Assembly: GCF_021502585.1 (NCBI RefSeq) | Contig: NZ_JAKFGM010000001.1 | Coordinates: 682,001 to 746,000, forward strand | DNA: 64,000 nt | DNA from: Sphingomonas cremea | GTDB taxonomy: Bacteria; Pseudomonadota; Alphaproteobacteria; Sphingomonadales; Sphingomonadaceae | Direction of reading: 5' to 3' | In this document: piece after piece, positions 24,912 to 59,649 of the stretch | Layout: each line of letters starts with the position of its first letter | How positions within the stretch are numbered: the first letter of the stretch is position 1 | Program-made: the position numbers and the translations under genes | Notes under the pieces: model-generated | Database searches by the model: none | What the model was told of the DNA's origin: nothing | Seen by the model: the letters and a program-made list of their open reading frames with translations, nothing else

Positions 24912-24986
24912 TGGTGGGCCCGGCAGGATTCGAACCTACAACCAAGCCGTTATGAGCGGCCAGCTCTACCGTTGAGCTACAGGCCC
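24912..24986 (-). tRNA. tRNA with CAU anticodon, probably tRNA-Ile2
   Basis: Complete 75-nt cloverleaf read on the minus strand, with encoded CCA. Acceptor GGGCCTG pairs with CGGGCCC; the D arm GCTC/GAGC, anticodon loop CTCATAA and T arm with TTCGAAT are all normal. The anticodon CAT fits elongator Met or the lysidine-modified Ile2. The extra-arm and stem sequence (CGGCTTGGTTG) is closer to Ile2 as I know it. Confidence 0.93.
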
Positions 24987-25009
24987 CACCCGTTATCGGG
25001 GTAATCTGA

Positions 25010-25129
<120 letters not shown>

Positions 25130-37233: not shown

Positions 37234-37683
37234 TCACCAACCCAAGCAGTCGTGCGCCACCCGCGCCGCCGCATGAACGGTGAGGCCGAGCAAGCAGAAT
37301 GTGGCCAGCCCGAAAACCAGCAAGCGATAGCGGACCACGTTGACCGTGCATTGAATCAGGCTGTGGATGACGCGAAGCCCGACATAGCCCCAGGCTAGCC
37401 AAATGTTGACCGGCTGATCCATGCCCATCAGCGCAAGCGTAATCACGATTGCATAGTAAATCGTCGGCTGTTCCATGAGGTGGTTGTAATTGTGCGACTT
37501 CCATTGCGCCTCGTTCGGAGCCTTGCCGTCCATATCGACGCCGCGCGCACCAGCGGGCACCTTACCCAGCGAGACTCCCATTTTCTTGAAGGCCGCAAAG
37601 CGGGCCACGACCATCCAGACCATGATGACCAAGGTCCAGGCGACCAGCGCCACGACCGGCGCAAGCAACGGGCTATAATTCAC
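37234..37683 (-). CDS. MAPEG family membrane protein
   Basis: 149 residues with four membrane segments and the pattern of MAPEG proteins (membrane-associated proteins in eicosanoid and glutathione metabolism): a polar loop with the conserved EQPTIYYAIVITLAL and later GYVGLRVIHSLIQCTVNVVR. Bacterial members are often glutathione transferase-like; the substrate is unknown. The stop abuts the RNA methyltransferase stop. Confidence 0.9.
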   Translation of the reverse strand: MNYSPLLAPVVALVAWTLVIMVWMVVARFAAFKKMGVSLGKVPAGARGVDMDGKAPNEAQWKSHNYNHLMEQPTIYYAIVITLALMGMDQPVNIWLAWGYVGLRVIHSLIQCTVNVVRYRLLVFGLATFCLLGLTVHAAARVAHDCLGW

Positions 37684-38148: not shown

Positions 38149-39231
38149 CTAGTCGAACAGCCGGGCGAAGCGGCGCTTGTCGCGGCTGCGCCAGTGGCCG
38201 CGGTGGTAGGCGTCGCTGGCCAGCAGCGGCAGCACCGAGGTCGCCTCGGCATAGACCATCTGCTCGAGCGCAGTCGAAACCTTGCCCCAGCTGGCCGCTT
38301 CCTGGAGGGTCGATGACGAACAGGCCCCGTCGCGAACGTCGGCGACGGTGATTTGCACTGCATATTTGTGCACCTCGACATCCTCATGGCCGAGGATCTC
38401 GGCGCACACGACCGTGTCCTGCGCGAAGTTCTTGGGGACGCCGCCGCCGATCATCAGCAGGCCGGTGGTGCCCGCCTTGATCTTGATGTCGGTCAGTTCC
38501 CTGAAATCGGCGATCGAGTCGAGCGTCATGTAATGGCCGCCGCGCTTCATTGCATCGACCTGATGCTTGACGAGGCCGAAGCCGGCCGAGGAGTCGGTGA
38601 AGGCCGGGCAGAAGATCGGCACGTCATGCTCATAGGCTAGCTTGACCAGGCTGTTGTCCTTCTTGCCGTTGCCGTTCGCCAGCCATTTGCCCATCTCCCG
38701 AATGAAGGCGCGGCTCGAATAGGGGCGGGGCTCCAGGCTGTCGGCAATCTTGCCGATCGTATAGTCGCAATCCTGCAGCGCGATTTCGTCGATGTAGGTA
38801 TCGTAGATGCGGTCGATGTAGAGCGAGCGCAGCGTGTCGTCGTCGGGGATCTCTAGCGCCTGGTAATGCTTGTGCCCAAGTGCTTCGAAGAAATCCATGT
38901 CGACGATGGTCGCGCCGGTGGCGACGATGGCGTCGACCATGTTGTTGCGCACCAACTCGGCATAAAGATCCATGCAGCCGCCGGCCGAGGTCGAGCCGGC
39001 AATCACCAGGATGACCGAACAGCCAGGGTCCGACAGCATCTGGTTGTAGATGCCCGCGGCGCGCGCGAGGTCGCGGCTGGTGAAGCTCATCTTGCCCATC
39101 GCCTCGACCAGCGGGCGGGCGTCGAATGAGGTGATGTCGATATGCTCGACTTCGCTCGACAGCAATTCCGCCTTGCGCTTGTCATTGATCAGGCTCTCGT
39201 CCTGGACCTTGTTCAGCGTGTCGGTAGTCAT
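38149..39231 (-). CDS. deoxyhypusine synthase homologue, polyamine-forming enzyme
   Basis: 360 residues. The deoxyhypusine synthase fold is clear (STSAGGCMDLYAELVRNN; ATGATIVDMDFFEALGHKH; LMIGGGVPKNFA), and the catalytic Lys is kept: K317 in QEAASWGKVSTALEQ. Bacteria lack the eIF5A substrate, so such enzymes act on free polyamines with NAD; known bacterial homologues make homospermidine-type or guanidino-polyamine products (for example the 1,9-bis(guanidino)-5-aza-nonane synthase type). It lies 114 bp downstream of ornithine decarboxylase on the same strand, which supports a polyamine role. The exact product cannot be read from sequence. Confidence 0.9.
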   Translation of the reverse strand: MTTDTLNKVQDESLINDKRKAELLSSEVEHIDITSFDARPLVEAMGKMSFTSRDLARAAGIYNQMLSDPGCSVILVIAGSTSAGGCMDLYAELVRNNMVDAIVATGATIVDMDFFEALGHKHYQALEIPDDDTLRSLYIDRIYDTYIDEIALQDCDYTIGKIADSLEPRPYSSRAFIREMGKWLANGNGKKDNSLVKLAYEHDVPIFCPAFTDSSAGFGLVKHQVDAMKRGGHYMTLDSIADFRELTDIKIKAGTTGLLMIGGGVPKNFAQDTVVCAEILGHEDVEVHKYAVQITVADVRDGACSSSTLQEAASWGKVSTALEQMVYAEATSVLPLLASDAYHRGHWRSRDKRRFARLFD

Positions 39232-39345: not shown

Positions 39346-40569
39346 CTACAGCTTGACGACGTTCGAGCGGCGCTCCCGTTCCGCGAAACCGCCATAGAGC
39401 GAGGCCATCGGCTCGTCGCCGACGATAACCTTATCCTCGACGCCGAAGCCATTGAACCCGGTGCGCATGGCGCAGCCATAGGCGCCGAGCATCCCGACTT
39501 CGATATAGTCGCCGGCCTGGACGTCTGCCGGAAGCTCGAATGGGCCCGCCATATGGTCGAGGTCGTCGCAGGTCGGCCCGTAGAAGCTGAACGGCATTTC
39601 CCGGGCGTTCGACTCTTCCTCGCGGATCAGCTTGACCGGATAGCGCCAGCCGATGTGCGCCGCATCGAACAGGGCGCCGTAGGCGCCGTCGTTGATGTAC
39701 AGCTCATCGCCGCGACGCTTTTCGACGCGGACAAGCACACTGGCATATTCTGCGCAAAGCGCCCGGCCCGGCTCGCACCACAGCTCCGCCGAATAGCTGA
39801 TCGGCAACTCTTCGAAGGCGCGATAGATGACGTCGAAATAAGCCTCGAGCGCGGGCGGCTCCATACCCGGATACCAGCTGGGGAAGCCGCCGCCGACATC
39901 GACGATGTCGACCGTGACCGCAGCTTCGACGATCGCGTCACGCACGCGGCCCATCGCTTCGCCATATGCCGCGGGGCTCATCGCCTGGCTGCCGACATGG
40001 AAGCAAAGGCCGAGCGCGTCGGAAGCCTGGCGGGCGGCCATCAGCAGCGGCTTCACCTCATGGGGCTCGGCACCGAATTTGGACGCGAGGCTCAGCTTCG
40101 AATGATCGGAGGATACCCGCAGGCGGACGAGCAGGTTGAGGTCGGTCGCCCCCTTGGTGGCGCGCAGGATCTTCTCCAGCTCCTCCACCGTGTCGAGGCT
40201 GAAGGTCTTCACCCCATAAGTGAAATAGGCTTCCGCAATCGCTTCCTCGGCCTTGACCGGATGCATGAAGCACAGGGTTGCACCCGGCAGCGTTTCCGCG
40301 ACAAGCCGCACTTCGCCGAGCGAAGCGACATCATAATGGGTGACGCCCGCGTCCCACAGGACCTTGAGCAGGTCCGGCGAGGGATTGGCCTTGACCGCAT
40401 AGAGCGACTTGCCCGGAAACTTCTCTGCAAAGAAGCGGGCGGCACGCTTGGCGGCATGCGGACGGAGGAGCGTGACCGGTTGAACCGGGCGTTGCTCGAC
40501 AATCGCGGCAACATCGCTGTTGCCGTTAGGGGCTTTCGCTAGCCCCAGCGCGCTATGATGCTTGTGCAA
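39346..40569 (-). CDS. speF: ornithine decarboxylase, type III PLP fold (SpeF-like)
   Basis: 407 residues from TTG 40569. It decarboxylates ornithine to putrescine with PLP. The PLP lysine is K60 in SLYAVKANPSPD; VDVGGGFPSWYPG, WCEPGRALCAEY and the active-site GPTCDDLDHM are present. The GPTCD motif favours ODC over diaminopimelate decarboxylase. The TTG is 9 nt after GGAGG, which sits inside a 12-bp hairpin in the leader. An in-frame ATG at 40629 would add 20 residues and lies inside that hairpin. The symbol is by family. The deoxyhypusine synthase-like gene follows. Confidence 0.93.
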   Translation of the reverse strand: MHKHHSALGLAKAPNGNSDVAAIVEQRPVQPVTLLRPHAAKRAARFFAEKFPGKSLYAVKANPSPDLLKVLWDAGVTHYDVASLGEVRLVAETLPGATLCFMHPVKAEEAIAEAYFTYGVKTFSLDTVEELEKILRATKGATDLNLLVRLRVSSDHSKLSLASKFGAEPHEVKPLLMAARQASDALGLCFHVGSQAMSPAAYGEAMGRVRDAIVEAAVTVDIVDVGGGFPSWYPGMEPPALEAYFDVIYRAFEELPISYSAELWCEPGRALCAEYASVLVRVEKRRGDELYINDGAYGALFDAAHIGWRYPVKLIREEESNAREMPFSFYGPTCDDLDHMAGPFELPADVQAGDYIEVGMLGAYGCAMRTGFNGFGVEDKVIVGDEPMASLYGGFAERERRSNVVKL

Positions 40570-40690
40570 CTCAAGGGACCTCCAACGGGTAGTTTCGACA
40601 AAAAGCTGCCTTGCGGTTGGAAGTCCCATGGGGCAGCGGAAGCGCGATATATGTGTGGGGGTCCCCCATGTAAAGATTTTTTGAACCTTC
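40570..40690 (-). promoter_or_regulatory. speF-type leader RNA with sequestered ribosome-binding site
   Basis: On the minus strand GGGACTTCCAAC (40627-40616) pairs with GTTGGAGGTCCC (40586-40575) over 12 bp with one wobble, so the GGAGG of the decarboxylase gene is buried in the stem. Further upstream CATGGGG (around 40670) can pair with CCCCATG (around 40627), or fold on itself as GGGGG-A-CCCCC (40667-40657), giving mutually exclusive structures. This agrees with the Rfam speF leader known upstream of ornithine decarboxylases in alphaproteobacteria; I rely on memory for that family. Upstream limit is a guess. Confidence 0.72.
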
Positions 40691-40749
40691 GAGTTTGCGT
40701 TAATCCCCGGCTTGCAACGTTTTGCCGAAATCCCAAGGAGTTGAACGGC

Positions 40750-41709
40750 TTGGAACATTGTCCACAAGTGACACATGATGATGTGCTGGCCGCTGCCGCA
40801 CGCATTTCCGGCTCCGTCGAGCGTACGCCATTGGTCGAAGCGAAGATTCGCGGGTCGCGCGTCTGGCTCAAATGCGAATCCCTTCAAACCGGCGGTTCGT
40901 TCAAGCTCAGGGGCGCCACCAATCGGCTGATGCTTCTCAGCGAGGAGGAACGGGCCAGGGGAGTGGTCGCCTTTTCCTCGGGCAATCATGCCCAGGGCGT
41001 AGCGATTGCGGCCAAAAGGCTAGGGATTCCCGCAATTATCGTCATGCCGTCCGATGCCCCCAAACTGAAAATCGAAGGAACGCGGAGCCAGGGCGCTGAG
41101 ATTATTTTCTTCGATCGCCGTACGGAAAGCCGGGAAAAAATCGCCGCTGGCATTGCCGCCGAGAAAGGATCGGTGGTCGTCCCGAGCTTCGACGATCCGC
41201 ACATTGTCGCCGGGCAGGGAACGGCGGGCCTCGAAATTCTCGAACAGCTTGCAGAGGCCGGCGTTGCTGGTCCGGCGCAGATACTTGTCAATTGCGGCGG
41301 GGGCGGACTCAGCGCGGGTATTGCGCTGGCCTGCCCTGACTCCAGCATTGTGCCGGTCGAGCCAGAAGGGTGGGACGACATGCGCCGATCGCTGGAGCTG
41401 GGCGAGATCGTGCCGGTCGATGCCGACGCACCTCCGACGCTGTGCGACGCTCTCCAGACCCCCAAGGTCTCACCGATCACCTTCGGCATTCTGAAGGCAC
41501 GCGGAGTGAAGGGAGTGGCTGTCAGCGAGGATGAAATTGCTGCTGCGGTGCGCTGGGCATGGCAGGAGCATGGCTTGGTGGTCGAGCCCGGCGGCGCAGC
41601 TTCGATTGCGGCGCTTTTAGCTGGAAAGGCGGAAATCGTGCCGGAAACGGTGGCGCTGGTGTCTGGCGGGAATATCGACCCCGCGCTTCATGCGCGGCTG
41701 GTCGATTAG
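40750..41709 (+). CDS. threonine ammonia-lyase (threonine/serine dehydratase), catabolic-like
   Basis: 319 residues from TTG 40750, which is 9 nt after AAGGAG. It deaminates threonine (or serine) to a 2-oxo acid with PLP. The PLP lysine is K52 in GGSFKLRGATNRL, with SSGNHAQGVAIAA and the glycine loop NCGGGGLSAG. There is no C-terminal ACT regulatory domain, unlike biosynthetic IlvA. It is divergent from the decarboxylase gene, so both leaders share 40570-40749. Confidence 0.9.
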   Translation: MEHCPQVTHDDVLAAAARISGSVERTPLVEAKIRGSRVWLKCESLQTGGSFKLRGATNRLMLLSEEERARGVVAFSSGNHAQGVAIAAKRLGIPAIIVMPSDAPKLKIEGTRSQGAEIIFFDRRTESREKIAAGIAAEKGSVVVPSFDDPHIVAGQGTAGLEILEQLAEAGVAGPAQILVNCGGGGLSAGIALACPDSSIVPVEPEGWDDMRRSLELGEIVPVDADAPPTLCDALQTPKVSPITFGILKARGVKGVAVSEDEIAAAVRWAWQEHGLVVEPGGAASIAALLAGKAEIVPETVALVSGGNIDPALHARLVD

Positions 41710-55353: not shown

Positions 55354-55989
55354 TCAGACGGGGTGGAACTTGTCTTCCGCCTCGTCGAGCAGCCAAAGTT
55401 CGCCATCGCGAATGGAAAAATGGCACCCCAACAGTTTGAGGGTGCCATTTTTTTCGCGTTCGGCGACAAACGGAAAGCTCCGAAGGTTGGCGAGGCTCTG
55501 GCGAATCCCGATTTCTTCCAGGAGGCGGTGAGCATCTTCGCCTATGCCATGTTCCCGGGCAATCGCGTCGGCCGGCCCGCCTATCTGGGCCATCCAGGTT
55601 GCGACGAACCCCCCTTCGCCTTCCGGCGCGTCGTGGAATTGGCCGGTGAGCGCCGCAGAAATGCCGCCGCACCCTTCATGGCCCATCACTACTATCTCGG
55701 CTACATTCAACTGAGTCACGCCGAACTCCAACGCTGCCGAGACGCCATGACGTCCGCCGCCGGTTTCAAACGGCGGGACTAGGTTGGCGACGTTGCGCAC
55801 CACGAATATCTCGCCGGGGTTAGTGTCGAAGATGGTCGCCGGATCGGCGCGGCTGTCGCTGCAGGCAATGACGATTGCACGCGGCGCTTGCCCCTCGGCA
55901 AGCTCTTGCCATCTTTCCCTGGCTGTATCGAATCGATTGGCGCGAAACCGCCGATAGCCCTCAAGCAGGTTGCCGAACCCTTGCATCAA
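55354..55989 (-). CDS. beta-class carbonic anhydrase
   Basis: 211 residues. It interconverts CO2 and bicarbonate with zinc. Zinc ligands: C43 with D45 in [11 protein letters not shown]104 and C107 in VMGHEGCGG. The start has two Met; either may be used. A hairpin with T tracts on both sides lies inside its 3' coding part (55416-55454). Bicarbonate would feed CarAB and acetyl-CoA carboxylase. Confidence 0.95.
55416..55454. terminator. bidirectional terminator-like hairpin inside the carbonic anhydrase gene
   Basis: AAAAATGGCACCC and GGGTGCCATTTTT form a 13-bp stem around an 11-nt loop, with TTTTTTT on the plus strand and TTTTT on the minus strand. It could end the plus-strand lipoprotein transcript (stop at 55335). 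On the minus strand it would lie about 60 nt before the carbonic anhydrase stop. Confidence 0.65.
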
Positions 55990-58503: not shown

Positions 58504-59649
58504 CTACAAGCCGACGGGCGGCAGCCGGACCGATGCGACAGCCTGGGCGGCGATCCCTTCACCACGCCCCGTGAAGCCCAGTCTTTCGGTGGTCGTGGCC
58601 TTGATGCTGACGCAGGAAATCGGAAGCCCAAGAATTTCCGCCACCCGCGACCGCATGGCGTCACGATAGGGTCCGACCTTCGGCGCTTCGCATATCACGG
58701 TGCAGTCGACGAAATCGATCCGGCCGCCGGCGCGGCGGACCGCGTCGGCGGCATGGGCGAGGAAAATGCTGCTGCTGGCGCCCTTCCACCGGGGGTCGCT
58801 CGGCGGGAAATGCTCCCCAATATCGCCGAGCACGGCTGCCCCCAAAAGCGCATCGGTGATTGCGTGAAGGACCACATCGGCATCGCTGTGCCCGGCCAGG
58901 CCGCGCTCATGCGGTATCTCGACGCCGCCCATCATGATCGGGCCCTCGCCTGCGAAGGCGTGGACATCGAAGCCCATGCCGGTCCGGGATATGAGGCGCG
59001 TCGCCTGGTAGACCTCGGCACGGTCCCAATCAGAGGCCGTGGTCAATTTTTCGAGCAGGGGATCTCCTAAGACCACCGCGACCTCAAACCCTGCAGCGCG
59101 CGCGACGGTCGATTCGTCGGTGGCGCCAATATCTGTCCATTGCGCATATGCTTGTTCCAACGTGTCGAGCCGGAAGGCTTGCGGCGTCTGAACCCGCACC
59201 AGTCCCTGCCGATCCACCGCTTTTCCCAGCAAGCCGTCAGCTCGGGCAATCGTGTCGGCGATTGGGATTGCAGGAACCACTCCGTCAGCCGTCGGCAGCG
59301 CGTCGAGCAGTCGGTCGATGACGTCGTGCGGGCAAAAAGGGCGGGCGGCGTCGTGAACCAGGATGACGTCAGTCTCAATCGCTGCAAGGCCGGCGCGGAC
59401 GCTGTCGGCGCGCTCCGCACTGCCGATAATGAGCTCGCCGACATCGCGGCTGCCGAGCGCATTCCGGGCCAGTTCCTCATGGCCATTGCCAATTACCACG
59501 CGCACGGAGTCGATCGCCGGATGTGACGCTAAAGCGTCGACCGCGCGGGCCAGGACCGCGGTGCCGGCAATCGGCCGATATTGTTTGGGGAGTCCGCCGC
59601 CCAGCCGGCTTCCCGATCCGGCGGCGACGATAAGCGCGGTGACCGTCAT
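58504..59649 (-). CDS. ispDF: bifunctional IspD/IspF, MEP pathway
   Basis: 381 residues. The N-terminal IspD part (IVAAGSGSRLGGGLPKQY, cytidylyl transfer to MEP) is fused to IspF (MGFDVHAFAGEGPIMMGG; GHSDADVVLHAITDALLGA; TTERLGFTGRGEGIAAQA), which makes the cyclic diphosphate. IspF metal ligands (DVH and HSD motifs) are intact. The fusion is typical of alphaproteobacteria. It is divergent from dusB across 50 bp. Confidence 0.96.
   Translation of the reverse strand: MTVTALIVAAGSGSRLGGGLPKQYRPIAGTAVLARAVDALASHPAIDSVRVVIGNGHEELARNALGSRDVGELIIGSAERADSVRAGLAAIETDVILVHDAARPFCPHDVIDRLLDALPTADGVVPAIPIADTIARADGLLGKAVDRQGLVRVQTPQAFRLDTLEQAYAQWTDIGATDESTVARAAGFEVAVVLGDPLLEKLTTASDWDRAEVYQATRLISRTGMGFDVHAFAGEGPIMMGGVEIPHERGLAGHSDADVVLHAITDALLGAAVLGDIGEHFPPSDPRWKGASSSIFLAHAADAVRRAGGRIDFVDCTVICEAPKVGPYRDAMRSRVAEILGLPISCVSIKATTTERLGFTGRGEGIAAQAVASVRLPPVGL

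Follow-up and report, generated by a model that had tools for sequence, protein, structure and literature searches.

The leader of the ornithine decarboxylase gene in a 64,000-nt stretch of Sphingomonas cremea DNA (hereafter, “the window”) is, by the text of the paper that described the class, a canonical member of the odc1 motif (uORF-25-1; PMC8632094, RNA Biol 2021), with its ribosome-binding site buried in a stem of the leader. We lean toward the view that it works as a translational start-site selector for polyamine synthesis, in which a knot lies over a single ribosome-binding site and an upstream reading frame serves as a decoy. The motif itself was already known; new here are a family-wide census, covariation in the pseudoknot stem S1, a pattern in which the stop of the upstream frame is kept over its peptide, and a possible helix P2 in divergent leaders. 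An initial annotation of the window had pointed to the buried site and assigned the leader to the speF class. Its observation is partly confirmed and its interpretation partly supported, and it missed two defining parts of odc1, namely the pseudoknot S1 and the 11-codon upstream frame.

All features lie on the minus strand unless indicated otherwise. The gene behind the leader (39346-40569) starts at a UUG 9 nt past GGAGG and encodes a protein of the ornithine/lysine decarboxylase family; its best solved relative (5gjm) and its Pfam domains (PF02784 and PF00278) support the earlier naming of the gene as an ornithine decarboxylase. Adjoining it on the same strand is a putative operon partner, the gene of a deoxyhypusine-synthase-like protein (38149-39231), which makes a polyamine-linked signal plausible. 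The top NCBIfam assignment of this product, with a score over the cut-off, is 1,9-bis(guanidino)-5-aza-nonane synthase (NF002699), a relative of deoxyhypusine synthase, and a literature search found no paper combining deoxyhypusine synthase, homospermidine and Sphingomonas. Further on lies a MAPEG-family gene (pfam01124; 37234-37683), of a family among those that the text of PMC8632094 lists 3' of the odc1 motif. On the opposite strand, the open frame of a divergent PALP-family gene (PF00291; 40555-41709, plus strand) extends back across the leader to an ATG at 40555, and an automatic start call at that ATG would overlap the leader. The window also holds an ordinary bacterial small SRP RNA (RF00169; 46293-46387, plus strand) and two ordinary tRNA genes (Met and Pro; 24912-25129, minus strand).

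The comparisons below draw on 200 unique leaders (“rows”) from 235 loci. They are a non-random sample, in which 80 loci come from one named collection, as its best decarboxylase matches, and the remaining rows are nearest relatives, top matches and deliberately picked weak matches. Two loci had no decarboxylase match, seven were dropped with a match of less than 50% identity, and L210, L220 and L227 (two places) were dropped with a Shine-Dalgarno stretch that reads GGGAGGCCC. An alignment, A1, of 95 leaders was cut by a pattern holding GACTTCC, CCGCAAGG and GG[AG]GGTCCC, so that invariance at these places is partly by construction; the pattern occurred in 109 of the 110 loci then sampled, the exception (L040) being cut by a contig end. 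From A1 we built a covariance model, R1. The two S1 strands were parsed in 191 of the 200 rows, 10 of them by hand. The unparsed rows are L040, L180, L182, L213, L215, L216, L217, L219 and L226, with both L040 and L216 cut by contig ends.

The proposed stem is borne out. GGGACTTCCAAC (40627-40616) pairs with GTTGGAGGTCCC (40586-40575) over 12 bp, with one G-U pair and a 29-nt loop; we refer to this stem as P1. Its 5' strand, GGGACUUCCAAC (40616-40627), is the anti-Shine-Dalgarno strand, and its 3' strand, GUUGGAGGUCCC (40575-40586), holds the Shine-Dalgarno sequence GGAGG (40583-40579) 9 nt 5' of the TTG at 40569, so the burial of the ribosome-binding site stands as first described. A stem of 12 bp or longer, allowing a single G-U pair and a loop no longer than 40 nt, turned up in only 1 of 300 dinucleotide-shuffled versions of the leader. 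Among 1056 tiles of 121 nt covering both strands of the window, three held such a stem, and one of these tiles overlaps the odc1 leader. P1 is thus real and rare by chance. The other two tiles, 58686-58806 (plus strand) and 55410-55530 (minus strand), carry stems of 13 and 14 bp, again with no more than a single G-U pair, and are possibly terminators. The total folding energy is ordinary (z of -1.38 for 121 nt and -0.10 for 241 nt); in the computed fold of the predicted transcript, each base of GGAGG has an unpaired probability of at most 0.002.

Burial of the site is strongly conserved among relatives. GG[AG]GGTCCC is present in 190 of the 191 parsed loci, which had been pre-chosen by a slightly looser pattern, and GGGACTTCC on the opposite strand in 163 of them. 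P1 is not universal, as GGGACTTCC is missing from the other 28. Contiguous pairing runs over 9-13 bp in 168 of the 191 rows and over 4-8 bp in 16, and there is no GGGA in seven. Since P1 is nearly invariant, covariation says little about it. At the four positions that extend the stem past its core, the first and third exceed shuffled controls (14 and 25 of 2000 shuffles reach them), and the second and fourth show no excess (473 and 1551 of 2000).

The evidence for the second helix is of a different kind. GCUGCC (40632-40637), predicted to form the 5' end of the mRNA, pairs with GGCAGC (40605-40610) in the loop of P1, position 40637 opposite 40605 and 40632 opposite 40610, and both strands covary among relatives. 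The variants of this pseudoknot stem, S1, include GCUGCC:GGCAGC, GCAGCC:GGCUGC, GCGACC:GGUCGC, GCCGCC:GGCGGC, UCUGCC:GGCAGG and GCUGCU:AGCAGU, among others. Across the 191 parsed rows, 1140 of 1146 cells are paired, a figure that is high partly by construction, since the strands were located by a scan favouring complementarity. In a set of 60 distinct rows, pairing holds in 98.6% of cells, and sliding one strand by 1 to 3 nt leaves no more than 50% paired. Four of the six pairs vary on both sides in one row or more, compared with up to three in the slid versions. None of 500 shuffles attained the number of paired cells or that of both-sided changes, and the number of pair types was attained by 3 of them. 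S1 is therefore supported by covariation. The linkers differ in character: CGCAA (40611-40615), which lies between the P1 and S1 strands and is part of CCGCAAGG, is conserved in A1, whose rows were chosen by a pattern holding CCGCAAGG, and the linker at 40587-40604 is variable and, by eye, forms a hairpin of its own in some relatives.

These parts, taken with the upstream frame, identify the leader. The text of PMC8632094 describes odc1 as a hairpin P1 with the ribosome-binding site in its right shoulder, a pseudoknot joining the 5' end to the loop, a pair of UUG codons 2 nt apart, an 11-residue upstream frame, an ornithine decarboxylase downstream and pfam01124 genes nearby. Here, the right shoulder of the 12-bp P1 holds GGAGG (40583-40579), the 5'-end GCUGCC (40637-40632) pairs with GGCAGC (40610-40605) in the P1 loop, UUG 40574-40572 and UUG 40569-40567 have two nucleotides between them, the upstream frame (40574-40539) encodes the 11 residues MSCTSIIARWG followed by a stop, the decarboxylase gene follows directly, and a pfam01124 gene is among those downstream. 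We see no difference between this leader and the motif as worded in the text of PMC8632094, as distinct from its figures and supplements. Our wider comparison adds to the published description a possible P2 hairpin in divergent relatives, AUG/AUG starts in 2 of 200 rows, rare frames of 9, 10, 16 and 22 residues, and a peptide C-terminus whose conservation is lost outside one clade. In a literature search, the terms “odc1 motif” and “uORF-25-1” were each found in PMC8632094 only. Rfam gave no match at this leader and none at gathering score in four other odc1-bearing loci, so odc1 seems to be without an Rfam model.

The predicted 5' end comes from the promoter. A -35-like box, TTTACA (40669-40674), and a -10-like box, TATATC (40646-40651), separated by a 17-nt spacer, resemble a sigma-70 promoter and would place the transcription start near 40640-40638, at or just before GCUGCC (40637), giving a predicted leader of about 70 nt. 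Relatives keep both boxes, and the letters of the spacer vary. A loose -35 pattern (CTTTAC, TTTACA or CTTGC within 70 nt upstream) is found in 161 of the 191 parsed loci, and the last -10-like site, also by a loose pattern, starts 11-16 nt 5' of the first S1 strand in 168 of them. This bears on a pair of mutually exclusive folds that the initial annotation had drawn further upstream. The letters in question, CATGGGG (40670-40664), GGGGG (40667-40663) and CCCCC (40661-40657), do exist as described, but they sit in promoter DNA, in the 17-nt spacer or up to two bases beyond it; given the predicted start, such pairings are probably absent from the RNA. We therefore reject these folds, as the letters belong to the promoter and its spacer is variable among relatives. 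A pairing on the coding side that came out of the predicted fold, GCCCCA with UGGGGC at decarboxylase codons 8-10, was also set aside: it is weakened without a change in the partner by CUCGGGC in L023, L042 and L047 and by ACGGGC in Sphingopyxis rows. The upstream stop is a better explanation of the CUAG conserved at these codons than coding-side pairing.

That stop ends the upstream frame (40539-40574), which starts at a UUG 4 nt past GGAGG, 5 nt 5' of the decarboxylase UUG, and runs for the 11 codons of MSCTSIIARWG to a UAG spanning decarboxylase codons 10-11. The double start is TTG/TTG in 198 and ATG/ATG in 2 of the 200 rows, with a 2-nt gap in 199. Codon 12 is a stop in 197 of the 200 unique rows, compared with 1.7% per codon at codons 13-40 of the same frame, and the frame has exactly 11 residues in 195. 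The frame ends first at TAG in 174 rows, at TGA in 18 and at TAA in 8. Along a tree of 196 rows we count 12 changes in the state of codon 12, of which up to three are losses. The exceptions in length are frames of 9 residues (L147 and L158, where the stop comes two codons early and the codon-12 stop is retained as well), 10 (L192), 16 (L225) and 22 (L226). These rare lengths qualify the statement in the text of PMC8632094 that the length of the frame never varies. Outside the count stand L210, L220 and L227 (two places), which by eye have no codon-12 stop; the leaders of these loci, from genus g334, are very degenerate, with GGGAGGCCC and the lost stop, and look like cases of switch loss. At the one place in L220 and L227, the main start is an ATG behind a TTG.

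What precedes the stop is constrained far less evenly. Among the 84 eleven-residue rows that do not end in RWG, residues 9-11 each take at least 5 identities, and the third positions of decarboxylase codons 7-9 have entropies of 1.5-1.7 bits, so that silent sites are free. As a split into RWG and non-RWG rows is circular for frozen codons, we repeated the comparison with rows chosen by decarboxylase residues 8-9. In the 114 rows where these are Leu-Gly, Gly9 is GGG in 114 of 114, compared with 22 of 150 glycine codons further on, and Ala7 is GCG in 111 of 111, compared with 139 of 800. Residue 10 is encoded by CTA, TTA or GTA in all 114, supplying the upstream TAG, while CTA and TTA together make up 5 of 277 leucine codons further on. 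The upstream peptides of these rows end in RWG in 111 cases and in RSG in 3. Nearly all rows thus hold early termination, and the sequence before the stop is constrained in one clade only. To us this suggests that the frame is kept more for the position of its stop than for its peptide; the frozen stretch of the Leu-Gly clade may reflect a role at either the peptide or the RNA level.

The motif is spread through the family. R1 matches 374 of 397 sampled genomes in 95 of 96 genera. In a class-wide sample it matches 5 of 385 genomes, all five within the family, so under strict filters there was no match outside the family among these 385. In a sample of the order, 212 of 296 genomes match at E of at most 0.01, all but one of them within the family. 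We rejected the outlying match (G878, E 0.0065), whose sequence is not leader-like and whose genome has no decarboxylase match at E 1e-30. In the sole genus without a match (g370), the six genomes tested hold only decarboxylases of 29-33% identity and no close one; six other genomes missed by R1 do carry the gene, behind leaders that are degenerate or score weakly. The element thus mostly travels with the decarboxylase gene. One locus from a different family (L236, family f8) has a decarboxylase of about 55% identity whose start region reads GGAGGTCCCATGAATGG, with two ATGs one nucleotide apart; the same Shine-Dalgarno-UCCC string stands before the ATGs, and GCAAGG is absent from the 300 nt upstream. 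This lead hints that the double start may predate the pseudoknot.

In the reading we favor, the 5' end of the mRNA would pair with GGCAGC in S1, and ACUUCC, held in the loop, would pair with the Shine-Dalgarno sequence in P1, the resulting pseudoknot closing the ribosome-binding site. That one site would serve two UUG codons whose starts are 5 nt apart. Once the knot opens or rearranges, initiation at the first UUG (4 nt from GGAGG) would yield an 11-residue dead-end peptide, after which the ribosome leaves, and initiation at the second UUG (9 nt from GGAGG) would yield ornithine decarboxylase. The fold probably governs how much is made in all and how initiation is divided between the starts, responding to the polyamine state of the cell; we infer both the decoy role of the frame and the polyamine link of the signal. 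According to the text of PMC8632094, both starts are used in an E. coli reporter, the uORF start being about 3-fold stronger than the main one; mutating conserved positions just 5' of the pseudoknot nucleotides removes expression from the main start, and two of the three mutations had little effect on the first. These mutants (M4-M6), described there as lying just 5' of the pseudoknot nucleotides, would fall in the CGCAA linker (40611-40615). Since the published mutations beside the pseudoknot lower rather than raise main-start expression, the knot is more than a plain off state. The common Shine-Dalgarno sequence, the use of both starts and the effects of the mutants favor a fold that governs the amount and the site of initiation.

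A more specific version of start selection, which we regard as possible and put forward tentatively, assigns the decision to a G-rich strand. This strand would be held either by an upstream C-strand, in a helix P2 that some divergent relatives may form, or by UCCC past the Shine-Dalgarno sequence, in P1; its position would decide which UUG is used, with the decoy kept for its stop as a sink that trims polyamine synthesis. In the window leader, the counterpart of P2 (CCAUGGG, 40625-40631) allows at most 3 bp, too short to claim; a minority of divergent relatives have the hairpin in a longer form. The loop from GCUGCC to the P1 strand is extended in some divergent leaders. By script, a stem of 4-8 bp lies in the S1 loop of 14 of the 191 rows; 9 of the 14 are plain hairpins of a C-tract and a G-tract with a varied loop, and a different stem occurs in L195, L201, L208, L209 and L218. 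The real loop folds better than 95% of its mononucleotide shuffles in 5 of the 15 parsed S1 loops of at least 32 nt and in 3 of 3 hand-cut loops, the latter trimmed to the hairpin and hence favored. Because the G-strand of P2 lies over or next to the GGGA of P1, which is the partner of UCCC there, the two helices could compete.

Somewhat doubtful in our judgment is a strict metabolite riboswitch, in which the pseudoknot would bind one specific small molecule (ornithine, putrescine, homospermidine or another compound) and close the ribosome-binding site. The discoverers also raise this option in the text of PMC8632094. A small, highly conserved knotted leader with an unpaired, conserved CGCAA beside a biosynthetic gene is what such a switch might look like; the P1 strand and the loop, however, vary much among divergent relatives, and the unrelated speF leader, by the text of PMC1273637, had no measurable binding of six compounds tested.

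We consider it unlikely that the 11-residue peptide itself is the sensor, stalling the ribosome at its stop on polyamine or ornithine and thereby blocking or opening the decarboxylase start. Such behavior has precedents, as the SpeFL and eukaryotic AdoMetDC leader peptides stall ribosomes at a stop codon in response to polyamine or ornithine, and speFL of enterobacteria, an independent upstream frame, works via a conserved peptide. The conserved frame and stop, the use of both starts in E. coli (by the text of PMC8632094), and the RWG and RSG endings of the 111 and 3 Leu-Gly rows, kept despite codons that the decarboxylase leaves free, are in line with a sensing peptide. However, residues 9-11 diversify in the 84 non-RWG rows with the stop unchanged, lengths of 9, 10, 16 and 22 residues also occur, and the freeze in the RWG clade is equally explicable by constraint on the RNA. 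The likeness to the speFL leader peptides of enterobacteria (PMC6386406 for Salmonella speF) is that of a short upstream frame controlling ornithine decarboxylase. In odc1, by contrast, the frame overlaps the gene start, the ribosome-binding site is common to both, and the C-terminal sequence is not conserved family-wide.

It is very improbable that the hairpin is constitutive and conserved only through promoter and overlapping coding constraints. The region does lie between a promoter and two overlapping frames, and its folding energy is unexceptional, but S1 covaries although it is outside both frames, and the stretch from GCUGCC to GGCAGC is highly conserved although it is past the promoter boxes and outside coding sequence.

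Membership in the alphaproteobacterial speF class (RF00518), as first proposed, has almost no chance of being right. The type of gene downstream and the bacterial class are the same, as speF is likewise the leader of an alphaproteobacterial COG0019 decarboxylase, but its sequence and architecture are unlike those of odc1: in the text of PMC1273637, it comprises about 80 conserved nucleotides that form a long, bulged stem-loop and lies over 150 nt 5' of the start, whereas the predicted leader here is only about 70 nt. RF00518 found nothing in the window at gathering score, nor at 40400-41000 with E up to 10. It also found nothing in the whole genome, in a search whose control genomes were without a match as well; the model does work in other Alphaproteobacteria, with matches in 6 of 190 genomes of the class, 4 of them above the cut-off. 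At three speF loci, the leaders lack GCAAGG, a double start at the gene and the odc1 parts, and the adjoining decarboxylase is only distantly related, at 29-30% identity to that of the window. At the sensitivity of the Rfam model, its silence here, together with the unlike neighboring enzyme and the different architecture, leads us to reject the class.

It is unusual for bacteria to exert control by choosing which of two start codons behind a single Shine-Dalgarno sequence is used. An odc1 leader, which draws no Rfam match here, precedes the ornithine decarboxylase gene in nearly every sampled genome of the family. The question is now narrowed by the covariation of S1, by a stop that is kept even though, outside one clade, the end of the peptide is not conserved, and by a promoter that suggests where the RNA begins.
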